Shown: positions 48,304 to 62,450 of the stretch, in pieces
Layout: each line of letters begins with the position of its first letter
Numbering within the stretch: position 1 is the first letter of the stretch
Assembly (NCBI RefSeq): GCF_026344005.1
Contig: NZ_JAPKNH010000008.1
Coordinates: forward strand, 62,001-126,000
Direction of reading: 5' to 3'
Origin: Kaistia terrae
Lineage (GTDB): Bacteria > Pseudomonadota > Alphaproteobacteria > Rhizobiales > Kaistiaceae
DNA length: 64,000 bases
The notes under the pieces: generated by a model
Database searches by the model: none
What the model saw: only the letters and a program-made list of their open reading frames with translations
What the model was told of the DNA's origin: nothing
Translations under genes and position numbers: made by a program

Positions 48304-49509
48304 CTACTTCACCTCGGCCACGGATCCCTTCGCGACCCAGCCATCCACCGTTTCGGCGTCAAAGCCGAACTCGCCGAGGATCTCTCGCGAATGCTCGCCG
48401 ATGCGCGGCGCCGGGCGCTCGATCTCGGACGGCGTTTTCGACATCTTCACCGCCGGCGCCACCACCTTGACCGTGCCGGCGGTCGGGTGCTCGTAGCTGG
48501 TGATCGCGCCGATATGCTTTACCTGCGGATCCTGTTCGGCTTGGAGATGCGTCTTCACCTCGCCGCACCAGATGTCGACGGCCAGCAGCGCGTTCATCAG
48601 GTCGGCCGTCGTCCAGCCCTTGGTCAGCGCCGCGAGCTTTTCCCAGACCTCGTCACGCTTGTCGAACAGGTCCTTCGGATTGTCATAGACGAGCAGGCTG
48701 TCGTCGCCGAGCACGCCGACGAAGCGCTTGAACGGGCTCATCGCCACCGTCACCCAGCCATCCGAGGTCGGATAGACGCCGAAGGGCGCATCCATGCCGG
48801 GATGGCCGATGCCGGAGTTCGGCCGCACGAAATCCTGCTGGAAGTTCATCGCCATCAGCATTTCCTGGCCCTGATGCGCCAGCATGGCCGAGAGCAGGTC
48901 GACCTTGATCTCCTGCCCCTCGCCGGAGCGCTCGCGCCAGTAGAGCGCCGAGAGGATGCCATAGACCATGTTCATGGCGCCGACCTGGTCGGAGAAGCCG
49001 GAGCCGACCGGCACCGGCGGGCCATCGCCGCGGCCGGTCGCCGCCGCGATGCCGGTCAGGCCTTGGATCAGCATGTCCTGGCCGGGACGCGCGAGATACG
49101 GCCCGCTGTCGCCATAGCCGGAGCCCGAGCAATAGATGATGCGCGGATTGACCTTGGCGAAGTCGGCATAGCCGAAGCCGAGCCGCTCCAGCACGCCGGG
49201 GCGGAAATTCTGCACCACGACATCGGCCGTCTCGGCGATCTTGTAGAGGATTTCCTTCGCTTCCGGCGCCTTCAGATCCAGCGCCAGAGACCGCTTGTTG
49301 CGGTTCCAGGCGAGGAAGTTCGGGCTCTCCGCGCCGCCGACCCAGCGATTGTTGAAGGTCAGCGTGCGGAACAGGTCGCCCTGCCCCGGTCGCTCGACCT
49401 TGATGACATTCGCGCCCATGTCGGCAAGCAACTGGGTGGCGAAAGGGCCCTGCAGGAGATGGCTCAGATCGAGGACGGTGACGTCCTTCAGAGCCTTGGC
49501 GGCGGTCAT
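48304..49509 (-). CDS. CaiB/BaiF (class III) CoA-transferase
   Basis: 401-residue family III CoA-transferase, which moves CoA between carboxylic acids with an Asp-linked intermediate. Visible hallmarks are VTVLDLSHLLQGPFATQLLADMGA, IKVERPGQGD, NRNKRSLALDLK, VVVQNFRPGVLERLG and the catalytic Asp in GFSDQVGAM (about residue 170). ATG at 49509 begins the usual domain; the frame stays open far upstream but that part belongs to the next gene in another frame. Last gene of the nine-gene operon; it implies that a pathway acid is activated to a CoA ester. Confidence 0.92.
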   Translation of the reverse strand: MTAAKALKDVTVLDLSHLLQGPFATQLLADMGANVIKVERPGQGDLFRTLTFNNRWVGGAESPNFLAWNRNKRSLALDLKAPEAKEILYKIAETADVVVQNFRPGVLERLGFGYADFAKVNPRIIYCSGSGYGDSGPYLARPGQDMLIQGLTGIAAATGRGDGPPVPVGSGFSDQVGAMNMVYGILSALYWRERSGEGQEIKVDLLSAMLAHQGQEMLMAMNFQQDFVRPNSGIGHPGMDAPFGVYPTSDGWVTVAMSPFKRFVGVLGDDSLLVYDNPKDLFDKRDEVWEKLAALTKGWTTADLMNALLAVDIWCGEVKTHLQAEQDPQVKHIGAITSYEHPTAGTVKVVAPAVKMSKTPSEIERPAPRIGEHSREILGEFGFDAETVDGWVAKGSVAEVK

Positions 49510-49567
49510 GGTCGGTTCCTCACACTCATCTTGGCGAGCGGCCCGCCTGGCGGACCGCCCTGGTTGT

Positions 49568-50476
49568 CTAGTCCTGGGTGGTCTGGGTCTGCCGCCAGAG
49601 CGGCGTGCCCGTCGTGTCCGTGTCGATCTTCGTGACGTGCCAGCGGCCGAGATTGGCCGTGAAAAGGGCCGCGCCATCGAAGGCGATATTGGTCGGATGG
49701 GCCAGCAGATGCGCCGTCGCATCCTCGATGTAGATCTCGGACGAACCACCGCCGGCCGGGATGCGCAGCACGCGCGACGGCTCGTAGCAGCCGACGAACA
49801 GCGCGCCGGAATCATCAAACGCGAGGCCATCCGGTAGACCCGGCAGATCGTCCGACCAGGTGGTCGCCTCGCCGGCCGAGCCGTCCGCCGAGATCGCGAT
49901 CCGGGTGATGCGCCGGGCAAACGTCTCGCAAAGGAACAGCGCATCGCCCTCGGGGGCGAGCGCCATGCCATTGGCATGATCGAACGGCCCGCCATGCCAG
50001 ATTTTTCCAGCGCCGCTTTCGAGGTCATACTGCCAGATCGACGGGCCGGGATCGCTCGGCGCCCGCGTGTCGGAGACATAGAGCCGGCCACGAGCGCGGT
50101 CGACAACCGCGTAGTTCGGCACCTCGATGCCCGGCGCGGTGAAGCGTTTGAGCGAACGGTCCGCGAGGTCGAGGCGGAATACGGCGCTAGCCCTGGAATC
50201 GCAGACGAACAGGGCCCGGTCGCCATCAAAGGCGAGGCCGAGCAGGAAGCCGCCCGTCGAGGCGACCTCCTCGATCTCGGACCCGTCCGGCGCAATCCGC
50301 AGGATCTGGCCGTTTTCGCTGCCGGCCCAGACCCAGCCGTCCGGACCAACCGCGACACCCTCGGGGTGCTGCAGGCGCGGGGCGGAAAAGTTGCCGTCGA
50401 ACAGGACGGATGCGCGTTCGGCCGGCAGGACCGTTGTCCCGCCGGTTGAAAAAGCGTGATGGATGGCTCCCGACAT
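49568..50476 (-). CDS. SMP-30/gluconolactonase-family lactonase
   Basis: 302-residue six-bladed propeller hydrolase that opens sugar lactones. Metal-site motifs are present: Glu in QHPEGVAVGPDG, Asn in DHANGMALAPEG and Asp in PDGLAFDDSGALFVG. Start at 50476 shares one base with the upstream stop (TGATG). In the operon it would follow the SDR: aldose or uronate oxidation to a lactone, then hydrolysis to the sugar acid. Confidence 0.85.
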   Translation of the reverse strand: MSGAIHHAFSTGGTTVLPAERASVLFDGNFSAPRLQHPEGVAVGPDGWVWAGSENGQILRIAPDGSEIEEVASTGGFLLGLAFDGDRALFVCDSRASAVFRLDLADRSLKRFTAPGIEVPNYAVVDRARGRLYVSDTRAPSDPGPSIWQYDLESGAGKIWHGGPFDHANGMALAPEGDALFLCETFARRITRIAISADGSAGEATTWSDDLPGLPDGLAFDDSGALFVGCYEPSRVLRIPAGGGSSEIYIEDATAHLLAHPTNIAFDGAALFTANLGRWHVTKIDTDTTGTPLWRQTQTTQD

Positions 50477-51591
50477 CAGGCGCCCCGCGTCAGGAAGTTG
50501 GCGTCGTAGGGCACCGTCGCCTTGCCGCCGGCCTCGTCGGAAAGCGCTAGTTCGGATGCCCCCGCCTCGACCGACGCGACCCGGGTCCAACCTGCCGGCA
50601 GCGCGACGCCGCCGATGACGTTGCGGACTTCCACTTCGCCGGCCGGATCGAGCGTCAGCGCCGTCGGGATACCCTCTTCGGTCCACGGGTTCGGGTTGAT
50701 CGACGCCTTGTGGCCAAGACCTGCATAGGTGCGACCTTCCTCGAGACCGAGCACGCCGACATGGCGGCCATTCCACGGCGCGTAATCACGGCCGCCATTC
50801 GAGAACCACATCATGGTGATCGGGTAATCGGCCGGGTTCTTCAGCGTCAGGAAGATGTCGCGCTTGTCCGGACGAACGGCGGCGGCCCAACCGAGCGAAT
50901 TCTTCGGATCTTCGATCAGCGACAGGAAATCCTCATGGCTCGAACCGAACGGATAGCTGGTCAGGTCCGCCGTGCTGCCATCGGCGCGCGGCGCCTTGAT
51001 CAAGTCGGTGAAGCGCGAGGGATAGGCCAGCAGCGAACGGCCCTTGGCCGGGTCGGGCTCGATTGCGGTCGCCGGCGTGGTGGCAAACAGCTTTGGCGAG
51101 AAGGACAGCCGACCGCCGGCATCGAAGCGGGTCATGCCGTGATTGGCAACGGGGATCGCGCCCTCGCCGCCAACGAAAATGTGGCGCTGATAGAGGAAGG
51201 GATGGCCGTCGCGGACGGTGAATTCCTTGATCAAGGTGGCGCCGAGAACCCGCTTGTCGAGCTCGTAGCGGGCGGTCTGGCCGCCCTCGGCATGGGGTTC
51301 GACGCCGAGCAGCGTCCAGCGCGAATTGCCGGGCCAGCCATGCGGCGGCGCGGGTTCGACGTCGCTGGCGGAAAACGGCGCGCAGAAGAAATCACCGGAC
51401 AGGAAGCGGAGATTGGCGTCGAGGCTCTCGTCCTCGTAGATCGCCTTGTCCTCGACCCAGGGAGCGGTATGCAACGGCTCGATCGTGCGGCCGTCCTGCT
51501 CGGTCGCAAAGACACGCACGTGTCCGCCGCGCAGGTCGAGCGTCGCACGGACGCCCTTGGCCTCGATCGTATGAAAATCGCTCTCGTTCAT
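50476..51591 (-). CDS. Galactose-mutarotase-like (aldose 1-epimerase superfamily) protein
   Basis: 371-residue protein of all-beta character (LDLRGGHVRVF, VANHGMTRFD, WNGRHVGVLGLEEG, AGLGHKASINP) that best fits the galactose-mutarotase-like fold, perhaps the DUF4432 branch. Sugar anomer or epimer interconversion is a reasonable role given its SDR and lactonase neighbours, but I cannot identify the conserved catalytic His/Glu pair with confidence. AAGGAAG upstream of ATG 51591 supports the start; the longer open frame to 51738 adds no domain. Stop overlaps the lactonase start by one base. Confidence 0.6.
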   Translation of the reverse strand: MNESDFHTIEAKGVRATLDLRGGHVRVFATEQDGRTIEPLHTAPWVEDKAIYEDESLDANLRFLSGDFFCAPFSASDVEPAPPHGWPGNSRWTLLGVEPHAEGGQTARYELDKRVLGATLIKEFTVRDGHPFLYQRHIFVGGEGAIPVANHGMTRFDAGGRLSFSPKLFATTPATAIEPDPAKGRSLLAYPSRFTDLIKAPRADGSTADLTSYPFGSSHEDFLSLIEDPKNSLGWAAAVRPDKRDIFLTLKNPADYPITMMWFSNGGRDYAPWNGRHVGVLGLEEGRTYAGLGHKASINPNPWTEEGIPTALTLDPAGEVEVRNVIGGVALPAGWTRVASVEAGASELALSDEAGGKATVPYDANFLTRGA

Positions 51592-51622
51592 TCCGCTTCC
51601 TTCCCGTGATGATTGCCGCGCG

Positions 51623-52405
51623 TTACTCGCCCCTGACGACCAGGCCGCCATCGACGCGCAGGATTTCTCCCGTGATGAAGGAAGCCCGATCGCTCGCCAG
51701 GAACAAGACCGCTTCGCCAACTTCCGGCGCTTCTCCAAAGCGGCCGAGCGGATGGGCGTTGTTCCAGCTCGAAATCAGGCCCTGCGGATCGGGATGGGTG
51801 GCAAAGATCTTTTCGTTGAGCGGCGTCATGATCGTGCCGGGCGCCACCGCGTTGACGCGGATGCCGTGCGGGGCGAGGTCGATCGCCGCCTGCTGGGTCA
51901 GCGAATTGATGCCGCCCTTGGCAGCCGCATAGGCGGCCCAGCCCTTGAAGCCGGCGAGCGACTGCACCGACGACATGTTGACGACGGCGCCCTTGCCGCG
52001 CTTGCGCATTTCGGGGACGCAGACGCGCATGCCGCGCCAGACGCTGGACAGGTTGGTCGAAATGACCGTGTTCCAGCTATCCTCGTCGATCTCGTCGACG
52101 ACGCCGCCAATGGCGCGGGCCGCATTGTTGACGAGGATGTCGATGCCGCCAAAGGCCTTTACCGCCGCCGCCGCCATCGCTTCCATGTCGGCCATCACCG
52201 AAACGTCGGTGCGCACGAAGATCGCCTCGGCGCCGGTGGCGCGCAATTCTTCCGTCGTATTGGCGCCGGCTTCGGCGTCAAAATCGGCAACGACGATCGA
52301 TGCGCCTTCCCGCGCCAGCGCTTCGGCCGAGGCGCGGCCGATGCCCATGGCAGCGCCGGTGACGACGGCAACCCGTCCCAAAAGTTCGCTTCCGCGCATC
52401 GTCAT
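51623..52405 (-). CDS. SDR-family oxidoreductase
   Basis: 260-residue short-chain dehydrogenase. TGAAMGIG cofactor turn, ILVNNAARA, catalytic Ser in VNMSSVQS and Tyr-x3-Lys in YAAAK, C-terminal ILRVDGG. It begins in a 4-bp ATGA overlap with the enoyl-CoA hydratase stop, so translation is coupled; ATG 52399 is an alternative start two codons later. Likely oxidises the imported sugar or a derivative; substrate unknown. Confidence 0.85.
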   Translation of the reverse strand: MTMRGSELLGRVAVVTGAAMGIGRASAEALAREGASIVVADFDAEAGANTTEELRATGAEAIFVRTDVSVMADMEAMAAAAVKAFGGIDILVNNAARAIGGVVDEIDEDSWNTVISTNLSSVWRGMRVCVPEMRKRGKGAVVNMSSVQSLAGFKGWAAYAAAKGGINSLTQQAAIDLAPHGIRVNAVAPGTIMTPLNEKIFATHPDPQGLISSWNNAHPLGRFGEAPEVGEAVLFLASDRASFITGEILRVDGGLVVRGE

Positions 52406-53187
52406 ATTCCCTTGAACACCGGATCACGTTTGTCGAGGAAGGCGTCGATGCCTTCCTGGCCGTCCGCCGTGCCGTAGAGGCGGAACAGCACTTCCTGCTC
52501 GAAACCCTGCGCCACCGGCAGCGCCGCATCGGGCCCCTGCCGGATCAGCCGCTTCATCTCGGCCTGCGCCAGCGGCGCGACCTTCAGCATGGCACGGGCG
52601 CGGCCGAGCACGGTTTCCGCCAGCGCCTCGTCGGCGACGCATTCGGCCGCGAGGCCGAGCCCAAAGGCGCGCTCGCCGGTGATGCGGCGCGCCGCCAGCA
52701 TCATGTCGGAAGCGATGATGCGACCGACGGCCCGGGTCAGGCGCTGCGTGCCGCCGCCGCCGGGCGACAGGCCGAGCAGCCCTTCCGGCAGGCCGAGCCG
52801 GGCGCTGGTGGCGCAAAGGATGACATCGCAGCAGAGCGCGATTTCAAAACCGCCGCCGAGCGCATAGCCACGGATCGCCGCGATGGTCGGCTTGGGGAGG
52901 GCTTCGAGCTTGTCGAAGACGCGCCGGCTTTCGAGCTGGTAGGCGATGAACGCGGCCTGGCGGTTGCCGCGATATTCGGCGATGTCGGCGCCGGCGACAA
53001 AGGCCTTTTCACCCGCGCCTGCCAGGACGACGACCCGCACGGCTGGGTCGATGGCGATCGCATCCAGATGCGCCTCGAATTGCTGCATCAGCGGCGTCGA
53101 CAGCGCGTTCAGCTTGTCGGGCCGGTTGAAGGTAAGCCGGACGATGCCGGGCTCGATCTCTTCGCGGATGACGAGGGGTTCGGACAT
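52402..53187 (-). CDS. Enoyl-CoA hydratase/isomerase-family protein
   Basis: 261-residue crotonase-fold enzyme. Oxyanion-hole segments AGADIAEY and GYALGGGFE are present, and both catalytic glutamates of true hydratases are conserved (GGGFE and LPEGLLG), so hydration of an enoyl-CoA is plausible rather than a degenerate homologue. It lies 3 bp after the permease stop in transcription order and overlaps the SDR by 4 bp. Its presence inside a sugar-transport operon with a CoA-transferase is the main oddity. Confidence 0.88.
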   Translation of the reverse strand: MSEPLVIREEIEPGIVRLTFNRPDKLNALSTPLMQQFEAHLDAIAIDPAVRVVVLAGAGEKAFVAGADIAEYRGNRQAAFIAYQLESRRVFDKLEALPKPTIAAIRGYALGGGFEIALCCDVILCATSARLGLPEGLLGLSPGGGGTQRLTRAVGRIIASDMMLAARRITGERAFGLGLAAECVADEALAETVLGRARAMLKVAPLAQAEMKRLIRQGPDAALPVAQGFEQEVLFRLYGTADGQEGIDAFLDKRDPVFKGI

Positions 53188-53190
53188 CGA

Positions 53191-54024
53191 TCAGCCTTTC
53201 ACGGCGCCGGCGGTGAGGCCGGCCACGAACTGGCGTTGCAGGAGGAAGAAGATCGCGATCACAGGTACGGAGATCAGCACCGAGCTTGCCATCAGCTCGC
53301 CGTAGCGGATGCCGTACTGGCCGATGAAATCGTTCATGCCGACGGGAAGCGTGCGCATGTCCTTGGTCGAGGTGAAGGAGAGCGCGAACAGGAACTCCTG
53401 CCAGGTGACGATCAGCACGAACACCGAGGTGGCGACGATGCCCGGCTTGCACAGCGGCAGGATGATCAGGAAGAAGATCTTGAACGGCCCGGCGCCGTCG
53501 ATCGCCGCCGCCTCTTCCAGCGCCACCGGCAAGCGGGTGAGGAAGCCGCGCAGCATCCAGATCGCCACAGGCAGCGTCACCGTCACATAGGCGAGGATCA
53601 GCGAGGTGTAGGTGTTCAAGAGGTTCGCCGACTTCATCATCTTGTAGATCGGGATGATGATGGCGCTGGCCGGGAACATCTGCGCCACGATGACCAACAC
53701 CATCAGCACCGAAATGGCGCGCATCTGCGTGCGGGTGAACGAATAGGCGGCGAACAGCGCCAGCGTCACGGTGATCACCACCGTCGACAGCGACACGACG
53801 ACCGAATTGAAGAAATAGGTGCGGAATTCCGGCCGGAACGCCGTGACGTAGTTTTCCAGCGTCGGGTTATCCGGCCAGAGCCGGGCCGGAATGGCGAAGG
53901 GCTCGGCGGCCGGCTTCAGCGAGACCGAGACCATCCAGAAGAACGGCAGCAGGATCACGATGCAGAGGCCGAACTGCAGCAGCATCAGGCCGAAGCGGGA
54001 GGTTTTGGAGGGAGCGACGCTCAT
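53191..54024 (-). CDS. CUT1-type ABC transporter permease 2 (system without ATPase)
   Basis: 277-residue MalG/UgpE-type membrane subunit. First hydrophobic segment at about residues 12-33 (LMLLQFGLCIVILLPFFW), EAA loop EEAAAIDGAG then IILPLCKPG at about 175-205, C-terminus VAGLTAGAVKG. The start at 54024 gives a 4-bp ATGA overlap with the other permease; the much longer open frame upstream is another gene's shadow. The following gene in the operon is an enoyl-CoA hydratase, not an ATPase. Confidence 0.9.
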   Translation of the reverse strand: MSVAPSKTSRFGLMLLQFGLCIVILLPFFWMVSVSLKPAAEPFAIPARLWPDNPTLENYVTAFRPEFRTYFFNSVVVSLSTVVITVTLALFAAYSFTRTQMRAISVLMVLVIVAQMFPASAIIIPIYKMMKSANLLNTYTSLILAYVTVTLPVAIWMLRGFLTRLPVALEEAAAIDGAGPFKIFFLIILPLCKPGIVATSVFVLIVTWQEFLFALSFTSTKDMRTLPVGMNDFIGQYGIRYGELMASSVLISVPVIAIFFLLQRQFVAGLTAGAVKG

Positions 54025-54902
54025 GATGCAGCCTTTCGACCCGAGCCCTGGGCCAGGAAATAGAGCGTGATCAGGAGGGCGAGGATCACGATCGAGACGA
54101 CGCCGTAGCCGGCCGCCTCGCCGAAGCGGAACTGGCCGAAGCCGAGCTCGTAGATCTTGGTCGGGAAGATATGCGTCGAGTTCTGCGGCCCGCCGCGGGT
54201 CAGGACCCAGATCATGTCGAAATAGTTGAAGGTCAGGATGGTGGTCAGGATGAAGTTGATGGCGATCACCTCCTTCATCGACGGCAGCACGATGTGCCAG
54301 AGCCGGCGAACCGCGCCGGCACCGTCGATGCGGGCCGCTTCCATCTGCTCTTCCTCGACGTTCTGCAGCGCCGCCAGATAGACGATGGTGCAGAAGGGAA
54401 AGCCCTTCCAGACGGCGGCGATGACGACGGCGGCCATGGCGGTGGATGAGTCGGCAAGCCAGGCGAGGCCCTGATCGCCGAAGCCGGCGCTGATCAAGAA
54501 CGAATTGATGAGGCCGAGCTGCGGGTCGTACATGAAGCGCCACAGGATGGCGGCGACGACGCCTGGCAGCACCCAGGGCAGCAGGATCAGCGACCGCATC
54601 AGGCCCTGGCCGGGAAGTTTCTGGTTGAGCAGCAGCGCGCAGAAGAAGCCGAAGACGTTCTGCAGCGCCACGACGGCCAGCGTCCAGACGCAGGAATTCC
54701 AGACGATCTGCAAGAAATCGGCGCTGCCGAAGATCTTCTGGTAGACGGCGAGGCCGACGAATTTCGGCGTCGGGTTGATGAACGAGGTCGAGTAGAAGCT
54801 CTCGATGACCGTTCCGATCATCGGATAATACATCATGACCGCGACCAGCAGGACGGCGGGCGTCACGAAGATCCAGGTGAGCCAGCGATCGCGTTTCAGC
54901 AT
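54021..54902 (-). CDS. CUT1-type ABC transporter permease 1 (system without ATPase)
   Basis: 293-residue MalF/UgpA-type membrane subunit: first membrane segment at about residues 9-28 (LTWIFVTPAVLLVAVMMYYP), EAA loop MEAARIDGAG then IVLPSMKEVI at about 190-215. It is followed with a 4-bp overlap by the second permease, and preceded by the binding-protein gene across a gap holding two palindromic repeats. Confidence 0.9.
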   Translation of the reverse strand: MLKRDRWLTWIFVTPAVLLVAVMMYYPMIGTVIESFYSTSFINPTPKFVGLAVYQKIFGSADFLQIVWNSCVWTLAVVALQNVFGFFCALLLNQKLPGQGLMRSLILLPWVLPGVVAAILWRFMYDPQLGLINSFLISAGFGDQGLAWLADSSTAMAAVVIAAVWKGFPFCTIVYLAALQNVEEEQMEAARIDGAGAVRRLWHIVLPSMKEVIAINFILTTILTFNYFDMIWVLTRGGPQNSTHIFPTKIYELGFGQFRFGEAAGYGVVSIVILALLITLYFLAQGSGRKAAS

Positions 54903-54945: not shown

Positions 54946-55039
54946 CGTCATCCCGGACGCAGCGAAGCGGAGATCCGGGATCCATGCAGCCTGAGGCGTT
55001 TCAGACCTTGATGGATCCCCGCTTTCGCGGGGATGACGG
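54946..55039. repeat. Intergenic repeat of the 'CGTCATCC' family
   Basis: Unit bounded by CGTCATCCCGG and CGGGGATGACGG, with ggatccatgcagcc inside, closely related to those at 9026 and 59542-60215. It lies inside the operon, between binding-protein and permease genes, next to the short palindrome at 55057-55080. Confidence 0.7.
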
Positions 55040-55093: not shown

Positions 55094-56311
55094 TTAGTTC
55101 AGGCCGTCGATGGCGGCGCAGGCCTTGGCGGCGGCCTCGGCGGCGTTGGCGCCGGAATAGACGTCCTGGGCGAGTGTCACCTGGATGTCGGAGACTTCGA
55201 GGTAGCGGGCCGAGAGCGGACGCGGCTGGGCGTTTTCCAGATGCGTCATGATCTTGTCGGCGCCCTTGCGGTTCGCTTCCAGGAAGGTCTTGGCCGCCTT
55301 GACGTTGGCCGGGATCAGATCGACGACCGCGCCATTGACGTCTTCACGCGTCAGGAACTGGATGAGCTTCCAAGCCGCGTCCTGGTGCGGCGACGACTTG
55401 TAGACGACGAGGTTCCAGCCGCCATAGGTGCCGACCGGGGTCTTGCCGGCGGGCGCGGTGCCGTTCTCGAAGCCCCAGTCGATCTTCGACTTCTGCAGCG
55501 TCGGCTGCTCCAGCGCCGGCCAGAACTCGACACCGAGCGAGCCGTTCAGGAACAGTTCGCGCATGTCGCCCGACGAGGCGTTGAGGATGCCCTTCGGCGC
55601 AAACGGCACCAGCGTCTGCAGGTATTCGAGCGCGCCGACCGCCTCGGGGCTGGTCAGGGCGCACTTGCCGTTCTCGTCCAGCACCTTGCCGCCATTCGAG
55701 AATATGAAGCTGTCGAGCACGGCGACGGTATCTTCGCCCTTGTGGCCGAACAGGCCGACGCCATACTTGCCCTTGGCCGGATCGGTCAGCTTTTCCGCCG
55801 CTGCCTTCAGGCCTTCGAAGGTCGAGATCGAGGCCGGGTCGATGCCGGCTTCCTTGAACAGCGCATTGTTCAGGAACGAGAACTGCCAGACGTCGACATT
55901 GAACGGCACGCCGTACAGCTTGCCGTTGTAGTTGGCCGAGTCCCAGGCGCCCTTGAAGAAGCCGTCCTTGGTCAGGCCGGCAGCCTTGGCCTGCTCGTCC
56001 AGCTCCACGATCGCGCCGGCTTCGGCGAAAGCGCCCTGCCAGATCTGGTCGACGGTCGAAATGTCAGGCGCGTTGCCGCCCTGCACGGCGGTCAGCAGGC
56101 GCTGCTGGAATTCCGGGTAGGGAATGGTCGTGACTTCGATCTTGATGCCGGGATTCTCGGCCTCGAAGCGCTTGACCGCTTCCTGCTGGTACTGGCTCAG
56201 GCCGGATTCGGTCTGCTGGTTGTCCCAGAACTTCAGCGTGATGGTCTCCTGCGCGAATGCGGCAGGCGTCAGTCCCGCGAGCATCGTCGCGGCGAGAAGC
56301 AGTTTCTTCAT
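55094..56311 (-). CDS. CUT1-type ABC transporter, periplasmic binding protein (system without ATPase)
   Basis: 405-residue family 1 solute-binding protein. Signal peptide with cleavage expected after AFA near residue 20, then ITLKFWDNQQTESG, FEAENPGIKIEV, GNAPDISTVDQI and LPYG-equivalent LYGVPFNVD. GGGAGGG precedes the start. It follows the DeoR-like regulator gene by 45 bp on the same strand, so regulator and transporter are probably one transcript. Substrate unknown. Confidence 0.88.
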   Translation of the reverse strand: MKKLLLAATMLAGLTPAAFAQETITLKFWDNQQTESGLSQYQQEAVKRFEAENPGIKIEVTTIPYPEFQQRLLTAVQGGNAPDISTVDQIWQGAFAEAGAIVELDEQAKAAGLTKDGFFKGAWDSANYNGKLYGVPFNVDVWQFSFLNNALFKEAGIDPASISTFEGLKAAAEKLTDPAKGKYGVGLFGHKGEDTVAVLDSFIFSNGGKVLDENGKCALTSPEAVGALEYLQTLVPFAPKGILNASSGDMRELFLNGSLGVEFWPALEQPTLQKSKIDWGFENGTAPAGKTPVGTYGGWNLVVYKSSPHQDAAWKLIQFLTREDVNGAVVDLIPANVKAAKTFLEANRKGADKIMTHLENAQPRPLSARYLEVSDIQVTLAQDVYSGANAAEAAAKACAAIDGLN

Positions 56312-56356: not shown

Positions 56357-58117
56357 TCAGGCCTTCCGTCTGTCCGCCACGGACCCTCCGGTCCGGGGCG
56401 CCGCCATCTCCTCCGGCTCCTCGTCGGCCAGCGTGATGCGCGTGGCCATCGAGGCAAAGGCGAGCCGATCCGCCGGCAGCGAGGCGGAATCCGTGATCAA
56501 ATCGTCGATCGAGCCGAGCGCCACGATGCGGTGGCTGGCCTCGACCCCGACCAGCGAATGGTCGGCCATGACGACAACCTCGCGCGAGGCGTCGACGAAG
56601 CGCTTGGCGGCAAGCGCCAGCCGCTCGTCCGTCGCCGAGGCGCCGAAATGCGGCGAGATGCCATCGACCGACAGGAAAGCGCGATCGACCCGCATCGTCT
56701 CGAACAGCGCGCCAAGGCTGGGGCCGACCAGGCAGCGATCCTTCAGCTGATATTCGCCGCTCGTCATGATCAGCTTCAGACCCGGCCGGCCGGAAAGCCG
56801 CTCCATCACATCGACCGCGTTGGTGACGATGGTGATGTTGGCGCGGGTCATCAGTTCGTCGGCCAGAAGCGTGGAAAGGGTGCCGCTGTTGATCAGGATG
56901 GTGTCGCCATCGCGCACCAACCGGGCGGCGCTTTTCGCGATCAAGCGGCGGATCGCCGCGATCTCCCGGGCAATGCCCGATTGCGGCGCCGCGATCTTCA
57001 GCTCGAAGCCAAGCGCCTCGGCCCGCTCGCGCATGGCGCGCGCCATGTTGCGATACCAGTCATGCGCCGGATAATGCGGCACGAAGCCGATGGCGCGGCG
57101 CGGCCCGACCGAACGCACGAAGGCCGGCCGCTCGGTCGCGCCAAGGATCGACGCCTCCGCTTCGGGCGCCAGGCCCCAGCCCGCGCCGGATCTCCGATAA
57201 TATTGGTCGAGCGTGTCGGGGGTGATGACGACATGCGGCGTGCGGATTTCGTCCGGCATGGCGCTGCCATGCAGGGCGCCCGCCAGCGTCTCGACCGCGC
57301 GGATGCCGACGATTTCCGGAAACAGCGCGCTCGCCGCCTTCAGTTTTCCGCGTGAAGCAAGGGCGTCGAACAAGACGCCGCCCTCGCCGCCGACGGAGAA
57401 GGCGCTGACTTCGGCGACGCCCGCCGTATCGGAGGCCTCGATTGCTGCCAGCACGGAGTGATCATTGACGCCGAAGATCACATTGATGTCGGGATAGGCG
57501 GCGAATGCATCCAGGCTTGCGCGCAAGGCAATGCGAAAACTGCCCTGCCCATCGACGCGCCAGGGGCGAACCGTGCCGCGAAACGTCTCGCCAAATCCCT
57601 TGATGAAGCCGTCGCAGCGGGCGCGGGTGTTCGGCAGCGTCTCCAGCGAGACCAGCAGCACGCGCGCCTCGTCGATCGCGCCGGACATCATGCGGCCGGC
57701 GGCGCGGCCCAGTTCGCGCCCGGCGGTGAAATTATCCGGTCCCAGATAGACGCCGCCTTCCTGCGGCGAGGATTCGGCCAGGAATGGAATATGCCGGCGC
57801 TTCGCCAGCATGCGCAGCGTATCCGCGCCGCGCCCGCCGATCGGCGGCAGCACGATGGCGTCGACGCCCTCGATCTCGTCCTGCAACGCGCTGTCGCGCG
57901 ATGCCGGAGGCTCGTCCCCCTGGGCCGAGGTCGCCTGCACCAGCGCCCCGCCATGCGTGCGCTCGACCCGGCCCTCCTCGGCCAGCCGAACGATGTCGCG
58001 CCGGATGGTGACGCTGGAGACGCGGCCGATGCGCTGCGCGATTTCCAGCACGGAGACTTCCTCGCCCGCCTGGGCCAGAATCTCGATAATGCGCTGTTCG
58101 CGTTGCGATTTGATCAT
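56357..58117 (-). CDS. DeoR-type regulator with an inserted, apparently permuted sugar-binding domain
   Basis: 586-residue protein, over twice the DeoR family norm of about 250. Residues 1-58 are a DeoR helix-turn-helix (REQRIIEILAQAGE, SSVTIRRDIVRLAEEG, VERTHGGAL). Residues 85-310 look like the second half of a periplasmic sugar-binding fold (VDAIVLPPIGG, YLGPDNFTAGRELGR, PHVVITPDTLDQYY). Residues 342-378 (IGFVPHYPAHDWYRNMARAM) look like the first strand and helix of the same fold, out of order. Residues 392-560 are the DeoR sensor (AKSAARLVRDGDTILINSGT). Start 58117 begins at the HTH; ATG 58147 is possible. It heads the operon to 48304 and diverges from the nucleoside hydrolase gene. Confidence 0.8.
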   Translation of the reverse strand: MIKSQREQRIIEILAQAGEEVSVLEIAQRIGRVSSVTIRRDIVRLAEEGRVERTHGGALVQATSAQGDEPPASRDSALQDEIEGVDAIVLPPIGGRGADTLRMLAKRRHIPFLAESSPQEGGVYLGPDNFTAGRELGRAAGRMMSGAIDEARVLLVSLETLPNTRARCDGFIKGFGETFRGTVRPWRVDGQGSFRIALRASLDAFAAYPDINVIFGVNDHSVLAAIEASDTAGVAEVSAFSVGGEGGVLFDALASRGKLKAASALFPEIVGIRAVETLAGALHGSAMPDEIRTPHVVITPDTLDQYYRRSGAGWGLAPEAEASILGATERPAFVRSVGPRRAIGFVPHYPAHDWYRNMARAMRERAEALGFELKIAAPQSGIAREIAAIRRLIAKSAARLVRDGDTILINSGTLSTLLADELMTRANITIVTNAVDVMERLSGRPGLKLIMTSGEYQLKDRCLVGPSLGALFETMRVDRAFLSVDGISPHFGASATDERLALAAKRFVDASREVVVMADHSLVGVEASHRIVALGSIDDLITDSASLPADRLAFASMATRITLADEEPEEMAAPRTGGSVADRRKA

Positions 58118-58213
58118 ATTGATCGCTTTTCCTGATGTGCTGGTCATTATCCAGAACGGCTTTTAGCAAGCAAGTCTGCAAACTCGCATCAGGAATATTG
58201 ATCAAGTTGATCG
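58110..58213. promoter_or_regulatory. Two copies of TTGATCANNTTGATCG, candidate operators
   Basis: TTGATCATATTGATCG (58110-58125) covers the start codon of the DeoR-like regulator; TTGATCAAGTTGATCG (58198-58213) lies in the gap towards the nucleoside hydrolase gene, 88 bp away. Each is a direct repeat of TTGATC with a 9-bp period, a layout common for DeoR-family operators. The remaining part of the 301-bp gap (58214-58418) shows no gene or repeat that I recognise. Confidence 0.6.
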
Positions 58214-58418: not shown

Positions 58419-59411
58419 ATGACAAGCCCGAGCACCGCCCCCATCAAGGTGATCTACGACACAGACCCCGGCATCGACGACGCCATGGCGCTGCTGTTCC
58501 TGGAATATGCGCCGGAGATCGACCTCGTCGGCATCACCACCGTGCTCGGCAATGCCTCGATCGACACGACGACCCACAATGCGCTCTACCTGAAGCAGTT
58601 GTTCGACATCGCCGCGCCGGTGGCGCGCGGCGCGGGCAAGCCGCTGGTCGTGCCGATGGTCGAGGAGCCGCATTTCGTGCACGGCCGGAACGGCCTCGGC
58701 GAAGTTCCTATCCCCGACACGCTGTCGGTCAAGGAACATGAACTGCCGGCGCATCGCTTCATCATCGACATGGTGCGCAAGCACCCGCACGAGATCGTCA
58801 TCGTCGCCGTCGGCCGCATGACCAACCTGGCGCTGGCGCTGCGCGAAGATCCCGGCATCGCCGAGTTGGTCAAGGAAGTCGTCATCATGGGCGGCGCGTT
58901 CGGCTTCTACGGTCATTCCGGCAATGTGACGCCGGTGGCCGAAGCCAACATCATCGGCGACCCGCACGCCGCCGACGAGATGTTCGCAGCCCCGTGGCCT
59001 GTCGTCGCCGTTGGCCTCGACGTGACGCAGGAATGTGTGATGACCACCGCCTACATGGCAGAGCTGCGCGAGAAGGGCGGCAAGGCCGGCCAGTTCTTCT
59101 GGGATATCTCGCGCTTCTACGAGGACTTCTACCGCCGCGCGACTGGCATCGACGGCATCTTCGTGCACGATTCCTCGGCGGTCGCCTATCTGCTCGATCC
59201 GACCCTGTTCAAGACCCGTCCCGGCCCGATCAAGGTGGTGACCGAAGGCATCGCGATCGGCCAGACGATCCAGCAGCCGACGACCCGCTCGTTCCCACCG
59301 ACGCCCTGGGACGGCTTGCCGAACCAGAAGATCTGCATCGCCGTCGACGGTCCGCGCTTCCTCGACCTCTACTTCAAGGTCATCGTCGAAGGCGCCGCCG
59401 CACGGGCGTGA
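58419..59411 (+). CDS. Inosine-uridine preferring nucleoside hydrolase family protein
   Basis: 330-residue nucleoside hydrolase that cleaves the N-glycosidic bond of ribonucleosides. The calcium-binding motif DTDPGIDDA (residues 14-22) is intact, as are IVIVAVGRMTNLALAL, VIMGGAFG, EANIIGDPHAADEMF and the HDSSAVAYLLDP segment. It diverges from the DeoR-like regulator and is followed by a short palindrome and a 1-kb repeat region. Product ribose or base could feed the deo-like genes downstream; that link is inference. Confidence 0.9.
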   Translation: MTSPSTAPIKVIYDTDPGIDDAMALLFLEYAPEIDLVGITTVLGNASIDTTTHNALYLKQLFDIAAPVARGAGKPLVVPMVEEPHFVHGRNGLGEVPIPDTLSVKEHELPAHRFIIDMVRKHPHEIVIVAVGRMTNLALALREDPGIAELVKEVVIMGGAFGFYGHSGNVTPVAEANIIGDPHAADEMFAAPWPVVAVGLDVTQECVMTTAYMAELREKGGKAGQFFWDISRFYEDFYRRATGIDGIFVHDSSAVAYLLDPTLFKTRPGPIKVVTEGIAIGQTIQQPTTRSFPPTPWDGLPNQKICIAVDGPRFLDLYFKVIVEGAAARA

Positions 59412-60412
59412 GGCGTCTGGGTCGGGCGCCGGCAAGGCCCTCACCCTACCCTCTCCCGCAAGCGGGAGGGGGTTCCGGCCGGTGCTCGCCATCAATGACG
59501 ACAAGCAGTCGAGATCCCCCTCTCCCGCGCCCCACACTTGGCGTCATCCTCGCGAAGGCGAGGACCCATTCCGCTGGGTTTTCGGGCGTTTCACCCGGAA
59601 AAACCTCGGCTGAATGGGTCCCGGGTCAAGCCCGGGATGACGGCGAGCGTGGACTGACGCCGGAGGTAAGATTGGGAGCAAAGTTGGGTTGGAGGTGGAG
59701 GTGAAGCTGGCGCCGGCGCCGACGAACAACTCCCTCGTCAGAACTCTCCGTTTCCCCACCCTCCCCGTCATCCCTGCGAAAGCAGGGATCCATGCAGCCG
59801 AAGGCTCCCCGTTTGAGCCCCTCGCTCCCGCCTCCTACACACGGGCGTCATCCTCGCGCAGACGAGGATCCATGCAGCCGGGTTTTGGGGCGTGCAAACC
59901 TCACCACGCTACCGCTGAATGGATCCCGGCTCGGGGGCCGGGATGACGACGAGCGTGAGCAGATGCCGGAGAGCAACTTCGGCAGCCGGACCTCTCCGTT
60001 TCCCCACCCTCCCCGTCATCCCTGCGAAAGCAGGGATCCATGCCGCCGAAGGCTCCCCGTTTGAGCCCCTCGCTCCCGCCTCCCACACCCGGCGTCATCC
60101 TCGCGCAGACAAGGATCCATGCAGCCGGGTTCTGGGGCGCGCGAACCTCCCCACGTTACCGCTGAATGGGTCCCGGATCTTCGCCCGGGATGACGGCGAG
60201 GGTGGGGTGCGGCCGGCGCTCCTCATCGTCGAAGAGGCGAGCCGCGAATGCAGCCGCGCACCCTCTCCCGCTCGCGGGAGAGGGTTGGGGTGAGGGGCTT
60301 GCACGCCTCGCATGACCCTCAGATCGAACCTTTGGCAACCACCCCCACTCCGCCTTGACTCTTCCCCAGCGACAGCCTATCCATTTCACATAAGTGATCG
60401 CGCCTCACATTT
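59412..60412. repeat. 1-kb gene-free region made of intergenic repeats
   Basis: From left to right: palindrome CCCTCTCCCGC...GCGGGAGGGGG (59449-59472) shortly after the hydrolase stop; one CGTCATCC-family unit (59542-59643); a 248-bp unit (59745-59992) followed by a near-identical second copy (59993-60215); the palindrome CCCTCTCCCGC-TC-GCGGGAGAGGG (60261-60284). Each 248-bp unit holds two CGTCATCC elements and the shared text CGAAGGCTCCCCGTTTGAGC. No convincing ORF. Confidence 0.75.
59745..60215. repeat. Tandem duplication with 248-bp period
   Basis: TCTCCGTTTCCCCACCCTCC recurs at 59745 and 59993, and most of the 248 bp after each is the same, with about a dozen scattered differences (for example ATGCAGCC versus ATGCCGCC, GACGAGG versus GACAAGG). 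This is a recent tandem copy of a composite CGTCATCC repeat; the divergence is in point changes, not indels, over most of its length. Confidence 0.75.
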
Positions 60413-60424
60413 GTGAAAGCCATG
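60355..60424 (+). promoter_or_regulatory. Promoter and paired TCAC-N4-GTGA operators of the deo-like operon
   Basis: TTGACT (60355-60360), 17 bp, TATCCA (60378-60383) form a promoter whose start point falls near 60390. Two identical-type dyads, TCACATAAGTGA (60386-60397) and TCACATTTGTGA (60405-60416), lie on the start region 19 bp apart. The likely start codon of the SorC-type regulator (ATG 60422) comes only about 30 bp after the expected transcript start and lacks a clear ribosome-binding site. Confidence 0.6.
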
Positions 60425-61444
60425 CCGAGCGTCGCCACACCAGCGCCACCGACCCGTGATGAGCAGCGCGAGCACCGCATGGTGCAGGTCGCGAAGCTCT
60501 ATTACGACCTCGAGCGCACCCAGAGCGAGATCGCCGAGGAAGTCGGCCTGACCCGCTGGCAGGTGAGCCGGTTGCTGCGCGATGCGCGTGAAACCGGCAT
60601 CGTCCGCATCGCCATCGTGCCCCGAGCGCAACGCCTGCCGGCGCTGGAATCCCGGCTGCAGAAGGCGTTCGACTTGCGCGAGGCGATCGTCGTGCCCTCG
60701 ATGGGCGATGGCGACGTGGCGCAGGACGCGGTCGCGCAGGCGGCCGGACAGTATCTGGCCAGCCTCAGCCCGCGCCCCGGCCTTATTGGCGTCTCCTGGG
60801 GCCGGACCATGGCCTCCGTGGCGCACTGGCTGGCGCCCGGCTGGAACGATGGCGTCCGGATCGTGCTGATGAACGGCGCCACCAATCTGAAATCCGCGAC
60901 TCTGAAGACCAACACCGTCGCCGAACGTTTCGCCGAGGCCGGCAATGGCACGGCGACTCTGCTGCCGGTGCCCGCTATCGTCGGACGCGCCGAGACGCGC
61001 AACGTCATCGAGGAAGACCCGGTCATCGCAAGCGTGCTGACGCTGGCCGGCGAGGCCCCCGTCGCCTGCTTCGGGCTGGGCGGCATGGCGGGATCGGTGC
61101 ATGTCGAATCCGGCTACCTGACCGCCGAGGACGTCGACGGCCTCGCAGCCAAGAACGCCGTCGGCGACGTGCTCGGCCGCTTCATCGACGCGGACGGCGC
61201 CATTGCCGACCCGGCTCTCGATGCCCGCACCATCGGCCTCGCGCCCGAGAGACTGCGCGACAAGACTCATTCGATCGGCGTCGCCTCCGGCAAGGCAAAG
61301 CACGCCGTCGTCCTCGCCGCCCTGAAGGCGCGTTACGTCAACGTCCTCGTCACCGACGAGGCGACCGCGCTTCATGCCTTGTCCGACTACGCCACCAACG
61401 AAAAAACCCTTTCCGAAGACCGGGAGAAAACCCATGCCGGCTGA
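60422..61444 (+). CDS. SorC/DeoR(Bacillus)-type sugar-binding transcriptional regulator
   Basis: 340-residue SorC-family regulator: N-terminal helix-turn-helix (about residues 20-55, QVAKLYYDLERTQSEIAEEV then WQVSRLLRDARETG) and a C-terminal sugar-phosphate-binding domain (about 65-330) with GVSWGRTMASV, the usual phosphate-site turn. The neighbouring deoxyribose-phosphate aldolase makes deoxyribose-5-phosphate or a relative the probable effector. The alternative start GTG 60413 lies inside an operator, so ATG 60422 is preferred. It overlaps deoC by 11 bp. Confidence 0.88.
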   Translation: MPSVATPAPPTRDEQREHRMVQVAKLYYDLERTQSEIAEEVGLTRWQVSRLLRDARETGIVRIAIVPRAQRLPALESRLQKAFDLREAIVVPSMGDGDVAQDAVAQAAGQYLASLSPRPGLIGVSWGRTMASVAHWLAPGWNDGVRIVLMNGATNLKSATLKTNTVAERFAEAGNGTATLLPVPAIVGRAETRNVIEEDPVIASVLTLAGEAPVACFGLGGMAGSVHVESGYLTAEDVDGLAAKNAVGDVLGRFIDADGAIADPALDARTIGLAPERLRDKTHSIGVASGKAKHAVVLAALKARYVNVLVTDEATALHALSDYATNEKTLSEDREKTHAG

Positions 61445-62450
61445 CGGCTCCACGGAGCGCAAGACTCCGTCCACATCGAATGCGCCGCCGCTATCCAACG
61501 CCCTGAAGCGCAATGACGGCACGCCGTTGCAGGTTGACTGGTTCGAAAGCGCCCAGGTCAACACCTCGGCCGCCGAACGCCGCGCCGCGACGCTTTCCAC
61601 AAGGCGGACGGTGAAGAAGGAATATCAGGCGGCCTGGCTGATCAAGGCCGTGACGCTGATGGACCTGACGACGCTCGCAGGCGACGATACGCCCGCCCGC
61701 GTCCACCGGCTCTGCATGAAGGCGCGCCGGCCGTTCCGCGAGGACCTGGTCGAGGCGCTCGGGCTCCAGGCCAATCCGCCAAAAGTCGGCGCCGTCTGTG
61801 TCTATCCGACGATGGTCGCGCCCGCCGTCAAGGCGCTGGAAGGCTCGGGCATTCCCGTCGCCTCGGTCGCCACCGGCTTCCCGGCCGGCCTGACCCCTCT
61901 GAAGCAGCGGCTGGAGGAGATCCACTACGCCGTCGGCGAGGGCGCGCATGAGATCGACATCGTCATCACCCGCGCCCATGTGCTGAACGCCGACTGGCAG
62001 GCGCTCTATGACGAAGTCGCCGCCATGCGCGAGGCCTGCGGCGAGGCGCATCTGAAGGCGATCCTCGCGACCGGCGATCTGAAGACACTGCGCAATGTCT
62101 ACAAGGCGTCGATGGTCGCCATGCAGGCCGGCGCCGACTTCATCAAGACCTCGACCGGCAAGGAAGACGTCAATGCGACGCTGCCGGTCAGCCTGGTGAT
62201 GTGCCGCGCCATCCGCGACTACGAAGCGCTGACCGGCTTCAAGATCGGCTTCAAGCCCGCCGGCGGTCTCAAGACCGCCAAGGACGCCATGTCCTGGCTG
62301 ATCCTGATGAAGGAAGAGTTGGGTAATGCCTGGCTCGAGCCGGACCTGTTCCGCATCGGCGCCAGTTCGCTGCTCGCCGACATCGAGCGGCAGATCGAGC
62401 ATTTCGTCACCGGCCGCTATTCGTCCACCATCCGTCACGCGCTCGCCTGA
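61434..62450 (+). CDS. deoC: Deoxyribose-phosphate aldolase
   Basis: 338-residue class I aldolase that splits 2-deoxy-D-ribose 5-phosphate to glyceraldehyde 3-phosphate and acetaldehyde. The barrel core (about 80-320) contains VGAVCVYPTMVAPA, AHEIDIVI, LKAILATGDL, the Schiff-base Lys in GADFIKTSTGK and FKPAGGLK. An N-terminal extension of about 75 residues, longer than in E. coli DeoC (259 residues), fits the long DeoC form. Start at 61434 overlaps the regulator by 11 bp. The following aldehyde dehydrogenase could oxidise the acetaldehyde. Confidence 0.93.
   Translation: MPADGSTERKTPSTSNAPPLSNALKRNDGTPLQVDWFESAQVNTSAAERRAATLSTRRTVKKEYQAAWLIKAVTLMDLTTLAGDDTPARVHRLCMKARRPFREDLVEALGLQANPPKVGAVCVYPTMVAPAVKALEGSGIPVASVATGFPAGLTPLKQRLEEIHYAVGEGAHEIDIVITRAHVLNADWQALYDEVAAMREACGEAHLKAILATGDLKTLRNVYKASMVAMQAGADFIKTSTGKEDVNATLPVSLVMCRAIRDYEALTGFKIGFKPAGGLKTAKDAMSWLILMKEELGNAWLEPDLFRIGASSLLADIERQIEHFVTGRYSSTIRHALA

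Follow-up and report, generated by a model that had tools for sequence, protein, structure and literature searches.

A DeoR-family regulator of Kaistia terrae with a circularly permuted periplasmic-binding-protein domain and a lost sugar-phosphate lysine: a probable case of sensor replacement

The stretch of DNA analysed in this work (the window, 64,000 nucleotides from Kaistia terrae) carries on its minus strand an operon headed by a regulator gene, which is one open frame with its ATG at 58117 and its stop at 56357–56359. The gene and the parts of its product, which include the two pieces of a periplasmic-binding-protein (PBP) domain, are as follows.

56357–58117, minus strand: permuted regulator gene, 586 aa, in the order HTH_DeoR, PBP body, PBP N-terminal piece, DeoRC
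57938–58102, minus strand: DeoR-type helix-turn-helix (HTH), residues 6–60 (Pfam HTH_DeoR, E 8.5e-12)
57188–57880, minus strand: type I PBP body from strand 3 to the natural C-terminus, residues 80–310 (hhalign; Foldseek to RbsB and relatives)
57107–57187, minus strand: variable linker between the former C-terminus and the former N-terminus, residues 311–337 (low identity)
56927–57106, minus strand: relocated PBP N-terminal piece (strand 1, helix 1, strand 2, helix 2), residues 338–397 (hhalign, Pfam)
56486–56950, minus strand: DeoRC sensor domain, residues 390–544 (Pfam E 1.2e-38; Foldseek to E. coli DeoR, 7l6l)

A DeoR-type HTH (PF08220) is present at the N-terminus on residues 6–60, with 45.1 bits against a cut-off of 21, and a DeoRC domain (PF00455) at the C-terminus on residues 390–544, with 133 bits against a cut-off of 31.8. 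The HTH is not joined directly to the sensor, as about 330 residues lie between them, and Peripla_BP_4 was matched in two stretches (whole-protein E 1.9e-21), the best of which covers residues 64–284 on profile positions 36–256. The start of DeoRC overlaps with helix 2 of the PBP domain. A LacI-type HTH was absent among the 8 Pfam families found at E up to 1, and HTH_DeoR was at the top of the HTH models. The initial annotation, which was made from the sequence, had placed the HTH at 1–58, two pieces of a sugar-binding fold at 85–310 and 342–378, and the DeoR sensor at 392–560; the first three pairs of limits agree with those of Pfam and the profiles within a few residues, and the last agrees with the Pfam DeoRC domain within about 16 residues at the end of DeoRC.

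The domain order is kept in homologues of 40–93% identity from isolates, MAGs, and plasmids, and an assembly artefact or a chance open frame was therefore rejected. The nearest named full-length homologues are those of Kaistia granuli, K. adipata, and K. defluvii (89–92%), and the hosts include Kaistia, Bauldia, Rhizobium, Microvirga, Afifellaceae, and Acetobacteraceae, the last as MAGs. Because the genome scans scored at most three candidates per genome, misses are possible and the following counts are lower bounds: matches at E ≤ 1e-40 were found in at least 12 of 397 genomes of the order, in 6 of 141 genera with five family labels (one of the 12 matching genomes, G514, contributes a fragment), and within the window's genus 6 of the 12 genomes listed match; at 1e-60, one of 385 genomes from the class and one of 398 from the phylum matched, and in both cases this was the window's own genome. 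From the species collection came 13 loci, of which one is a fragment and one is cut at a contig end, and plasmids gave three records at a coverage of at least 80%, from Sinorhizobium mexicanum, S. chiapasense, and Shinella sp. HZN7. This sparse distribution, together with the plasmid location, suggests that the operon has spread by transfer. The Shinella homologue (L034, NZ_CP015737.1 403861–405621) carries no annotation beyond that of a substrate-binding domain-containing protein, an example of how annotation can hide this regulator family. For comparisons within the family, we used a set of 21 proteins, which omits the fragments L013 and L032, the window's own copy found again (L014), L023, and four loci (L022, L024, L025, and L026) that gave the same matches as L003, L001, L002, and L012; L008 and L009 are near-identical and were both counted. 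The set of 21 upstream regions includes L023 and leaves out L010, which has no upstream DNA and an incomplete N-terminus.

The block order is identical in all 21 family members, the window's copy included. The canonical PBP order from strand 1 was not found; the profile is tiled in swapped order. We compared the profile of the 21 members with that of 29 canonical PBPs from the same genome (29 of 30 fetched loci, L087 being left out, from 69 matches in all) using hhalign. Residues 80–307 aligned to canonical positions 61–308 (E 1.1e-21, probability 99) and residues 338–397 to canonical positions 6–66 (E 4.1e-6, probability 87), the next alternative alignment of the fragment being no better than noise (E 0.1). 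The cut falls where helix 2 ends; the alignment reaches the end of the canonical proteins by residue 307, after which a variable linker runs back to strand 1. When searched alone, residues 63–323 matched Peripla_BP_4 positions 45–256 (E 4.2e-15), and the fragment 335–400 matched positions 1–55 (E 6.3e-6; 26.4 bits, where the curated cut-off is 35.1); in four divergent homologues, the corresponding fragment was matched weakly by Pfam in three cases (E 0.0018, 0.073, and 0.083) and not at all in the fourth. Re-ordering the chain canonically in silico gave a Peripla_BP_4 match to positions 1–256 in a single stretch with 81.8 bits (76.7 bits when the junction was chosen differently), and the native order scores 77.2 bits; this gain is small, so the argument for permutation rests on the profile positions. 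At the level of sequence, these results support the view that the PBP domain is circularly permuted, with the break where helix 2 ends.

The stretch 72–398, in which the HTH was omitted and DeoRC was omitted but for its first few residues, was predicted by AlphaFold2 as a single compact domain (mean pLDDT 86.1, pTM 0.85) with strands at 342–345 and 372–375. In the folded stretch these strands have no partner other than the PBP domain, and strand 1 would be packed in the PBP sheet. Helix 2 was poorly predicted in the isolated stretch (pLDDT about 47–53 for 382–398), and in the full-length model (pLDDT 77.7, pTM 0.57) residues 378–384 are below 50. In a Foldseek search with 72–398, sugar-type binding proteins came out on top: by sequence-order alignment, RbsB reached a TMt of 0.72 (rmsd 2.7, 229 columns), and the highest TMt, best among the 50 matches listed, was 0.73. 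The matches of the full-length model include both PBPs and E. coli DeoR (7l6l). The initial annotation had read the permutation from the order of motifs, taking 85–310 as part of a sugar-binding fold and 342–378 as the start of that fold; the profile alignment of both pieces, the four-part order found in 21 of 21 members, the predicted RbsB-like fold, and the compact prediction of 72–398 all speak for this reading.

Nine residues of RbsB are listed as binding ribose (PMC3676853), and a second contact table gives the same nine plus F164 (PMC2630998). By the first of these lists, eight of the nine contact positions are invariant in all 21 members (hypergeometric p 5.2e-6, with 48 invariant among 266 PBP positions). 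The RbsB–regulator pairs are N13–H352, F15–W354, F16–Y355, D89–E115, R90–S116, R141–R167, N190–N218, and D215–E245, of which the first three were placed through a weak match (E 0.24) of the fragment to the Thermotoga ribose-binding protein (2fn9), HDWY to NPWF, and the remaining ones through a phmmer match to 1dbp. The RbsB residue itself is kept only at R141 and N190, and the position of Q235 is Leu or Phe in the family members. H352, W354, and Y355 are all carried by the relocated piece (residues 338–397), and the pocket would be formed by both PBP pieces. The relocated loop 345–358, a short stretch that was picked after the alignment was seen, has a mean pairwise identity of 0.81 among 16 non-redundant members, the highest of the stretches compared, which include the PBP body with 0.51 and residues 311–340 with 0.21.

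The DeoRC domain differs from that of ordinary DeoR proteins at the following sites.

56552–56554, minus strand: lost sugar-phosphate Lys site, Leu522 in the Kaistia protein (K in 0 of 21 members)
56873–56884, minus strand: altered GT(T/S)T stretch in DeoRC, residues 412–415 (counts at position 413)

Sugar-phosphate binding by LacR and UlaR is described as requiring an Asp and, three residues further along, a Lys (PMC10991401). We compared the family with 32 ordinary DeoR proteins, which are the unique sequences of 34 frames at 37 loci in the same and related genomes and include many orthologues within one genus; the members of each set are interrelated, so the counts below are not independent. 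The Asp of the D-x-x-K motif is retained in 21 of 21 members, and the Lys position holds L in 13, V in 3, A in 3, and I in 2 of them, against K in 32 of the 32 ordinary proteins; E. coli DeoR (7l6l) reads DHSK there. Position 413 is T in only 2 of 21 members and takes six residue types in the family, whereas T stands there in 29 of the 32 ordinary proteins and S in the remaining 3, positions 413 and 414 both being T or S in these proteins. DeoRC is otherwise conserved (its mean pairwise identity is 0.54 and that of the PBP body 0.51), which indicates that the domain is not decaying as a whole. The family also has residues of its own: P466 is found in 21 of 21 members against 2 of 32 ordinary proteins, E498 in 20 of 21 against 0 of 32, and F491 (21 of 21) and C462 (19 of 21) are rare or unseen at these positions in the 32. 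Two long frames outside the family, found among 21 related genomes (in G774 and G701), were considered as evolutionary intermediates and rejected, as they are ordinary DeoR proteins whose frame extends upstream.

The genes that follow the regulator are these.

55097–56311, minus strand: operon gene 2, extracellular solute-binding protein (SBP_bac_1; Pfam, synteny)
53194–54902, minus strand: operon genes 3–4, two ABC permeases (Pfam BPD_transp_1, synteny)
51626–53187, minus strand: operon genes 5–6, enoyl-CoA hydratase-like protein and SDR dehydrogenase (Pfam, synteny)
48307–51591, minus strand: operon genes 7–9, protein of unknown family, SMP-30/gluconolactonase-like protein, and class III CoA-transferase (Pfam; same gene kinds in the Shinella operon)

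In 25 of the 27 homologous loci compared, the gene after the regulator is the one for the solute-binding protein (L032 ends within the regulator). The loci L001–L012 share the order regulator, solute-binding gene, two permeases, enoyl-CoA hydratase-like gene, and SDR dehydrogenase, with the hydratase-like gene absent at its usual place in L012. A diverged copy in the same genus (L027, G774:C1:2785336-2790039) is followed at once by the hydratase and dehydrogenase genes, the transporter genes being absent, and it reads HSWY where the family has HDWY. In the Shinella operon, 11 consecutive annotated genes are of these kinds and include genes for an ABC ATPase and another solute-binding protein. 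No gene recognisable as a sugar kinase was found among the other 8 operon genes of the window that were scanned, one of which belongs to no known family, or among the 11 annotated Shinella genes. The idea that the PBP domain derives from the operon's own solute-binding protein was not supported, since the latter belongs to SBP_bac_1 and the former to Peripla_BP_4. The region 48307–53187 joins sugar-type transport, SDR, and lactonase-like genes with hydratase-like and class III CoA-transferase genes, and the operon possibly encodes a CoA-dependent route for a sugar or sugar acid. The 371 aa protein at 50479–51591 has relatives in 10 of the 27 homologous loci, many of which end before it, and gave no Pfam or NCBIfam match at 1e-5.

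Repeated GATC half-sites were found upstream of the regulator, and we predict two operators.

58111–58124, minus strand: predicted proximal operator GATCAATATGATCA, overlapping the start codon
58199–58212, minus strand: predicted distal operator GATCAACTTGATCA, farther upstream than the proximal one by 88 bp

At both places, tandem GATC half-sites are 9 bp apart. All 21 copies examined are preceded by GATC pairs spaced 9–10 bp apart, where local shuffling gives an expectation of 0.000–0.016 per sequence; the upstream regions are related, so this count shows conservation and not independent origin. Both a distal cluster (−130 to −70) and a proximal cluster overlapping the start codon occur in just 10 of the 21. 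The pattern GATCANNNTGATCA is found twice in the window, both times upstream of the regulator, and 0 of 100 shuffles had two; over the 5.6 Mb of the genome it matches 11 times in forward and 11 times in reverse orientation, and two of these matches are at the regulator operon, so it is not exclusive and the exact pattern defines no regulon. We consider that the repeats may serve as operators. The protein start MIK, which is seen in many homologues, is partly the GATC repeat read as codons. A scan of the window found no sigma-70 promoter between the repeats; a TTG-N-(A/G)ATAAT pattern lies at the same place in five Kaistia sequences, but it is only suggestive, as the level seen was reached by at most 2% of shuffles in two of the five.

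The best explanation, to which we assign a probability of about 0.6, is that one sensor has replaced another in a DeoR-family operon regulator: the permuted PBP domain would sense an unphosphorylated ligand and would have taken over from the disabled sugar-phosphate site. Such a replacement accounts for the constraint on the PBP pocket as well as for the loss of the phosphate Lys. We propose that a ribose-type (type I) PBP, lying between HTH and DeoRC, became the effector sensor of a presumably cytoplasmic and oligomeric protein. Its ligand would be sugar-like, would be imported by the operon's own ABC transporter, and would be unphosphorylated because the route has no kinase. Binding would close the PBP domain on a pocket built from both pieces, and closure would pass through the helix 380–399, which would be at once the end of the relocated PBP piece and the start of DeoRC. 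The DeoRC assembly, no longer a sensor of sugar phosphates, would relay closure to the HTHs, which would leave the tandem GATC operators, one lying near −90 and the other across the start codon, and this release would induce the catabolic operon without a kinase. More tentatively, and at odds that we put a little short of even, a permuted transporter-type PBP was spliced into a DeoR regulator in such a way that its helix 2 is also helix 1 of DeoRC, DeoRC being now a ligand-free allosteric relay; the permutation would put both chain connections on one lobe and make the coupling rigid. Several observations go against sensor replacement: helix 2 is weakly predicted, the Q235 position holds Leu or Phe, only 10 of 21 copies have both operator clusters, and the promoter evidence is weak. 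In addition, DeoRC is as conserved as the PBP body, which is more than a passive relay may need, and DeoRC may bind something else.

The conservation of DeoRC leads to an alternative that we regard as rather unlikely, in which the PBP domain senses one ligand while a re-tooled DeoRC pocket binds a second, which is unphosphorylated or otherwise different, for example a pathway intermediate. Because DeoRC is well conserved, its P466, E498, F491, and C462 included, there is room for such a ligand; however, the Lys is lost throughout the family, the variety of residues at position 413 looks like relaxed constraint, and the conserved DeoRC loops could be interfaces. The more specific proposal of the initial annotation, that the protein integrates a free sugar and a sugar phosphate, is not supported, given the lost Lys, the changed GT(T/S)T stretch, and the lack of a recognised operon kinase, and it was dropped as the first choice on the lost Lys. 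In another arrangement, which seems improbable, residues 338–378 would complete the PBP domain of a neighbouring subunit, so that two-lobe sensors would exist only in the oligomer. The linker 311–340 is variable and about 30 residues long, and segment swapping has been reported for an engineered permuted lobe of the ribose-binding protein (PMC9815098), but the single chain 72–398 is predicted as one compact domain, a monomer prediction being by its nature unable to show a swap. That the PBP domain is a remnant deaf to ligand within an ordinary DeoR repressor of sugar phosphates is very improbable, since its pocket is highly constrained and the sugar-phosphate site is the very part that changed, even though Pfam gives a full DeoRC and an ordinary HTH.

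Sensor replacement would set this regulator apart from several known systems that it partly resembles. Like members of the DeoR/GlpR family (AgaR, UlaR, LacR, and E. coli DeoR), it has HTH_DeoR and DeoRC and stands beside a sugar-transport operon, but it has a PBP domain between HTH and sensor and has lost the D-x-x-K Lys and the GT(T/S)T stretch. It shares sequence family, predicted fold, and ligand-contact positions with ribose-type ABC solute-binding proteins (Peripla_BP_4; RbsB, 1dbp/2dri), whereas its PBP domain is permuted at the end of helix 2 and embedded behind an HTH. As in LacI/GalR, an HTH is followed by a type I PBP effector domain that would likewise sense a free sugar; unlike LacI/GalR, the HTH is of the DeoR type, the PBP domain is permuted and closer to Peripla_BP_4 (77 bits) than to Peripla_BP_1 (31 bits), and there is an additional DeoRC. 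Engineered permuted lobes of the Thermotoga ribose-binding protein are reported to stay folded and to be able to swap segments (PMC9815098); these are single-lobe laboratory constructs, whereas the domain described here is a natural one with two lobes. Among the open-access papers listed in literature searches, none describes an architecture of HTH, permuted PBP, and DeoRC in its title or the start of its abstract. Both domains and both modes of sensing are already known, and the combination, the permutation, and the disabled phosphate site are undescribed in the open-access literature matches listed. Protein engineers permute and insert binding proteins to make sensors, and this regulator looks like evolution doing likewise, with a plausible metabolic reason, namely that a route free of kinases leaves a sugar-phosphate sensor nothing to sense. 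It makes the replacement of one sensor by another open to test, and it comes with a predicted operator.

Two further observations concern the surroundings of the operon. Inverted repeats lie at 54970–55026, in the gap between the solute-binding and permease genes, and at 59432–60307, downstream of a nucleoside hydrolase gene; we take them to resemble the intergenic palindromic repeats of the host's order, and a guessed pattern for a rhizobial palindromic repeat gave no match. The region 58419–62447 beside the operon, which is kept in L001–L003, contains this nucleoside hydrolase gene, a gene for a SorC-type sugar-binding regulator, and a gene that reads by eye as a deoxyribose-phosphate aldolase.
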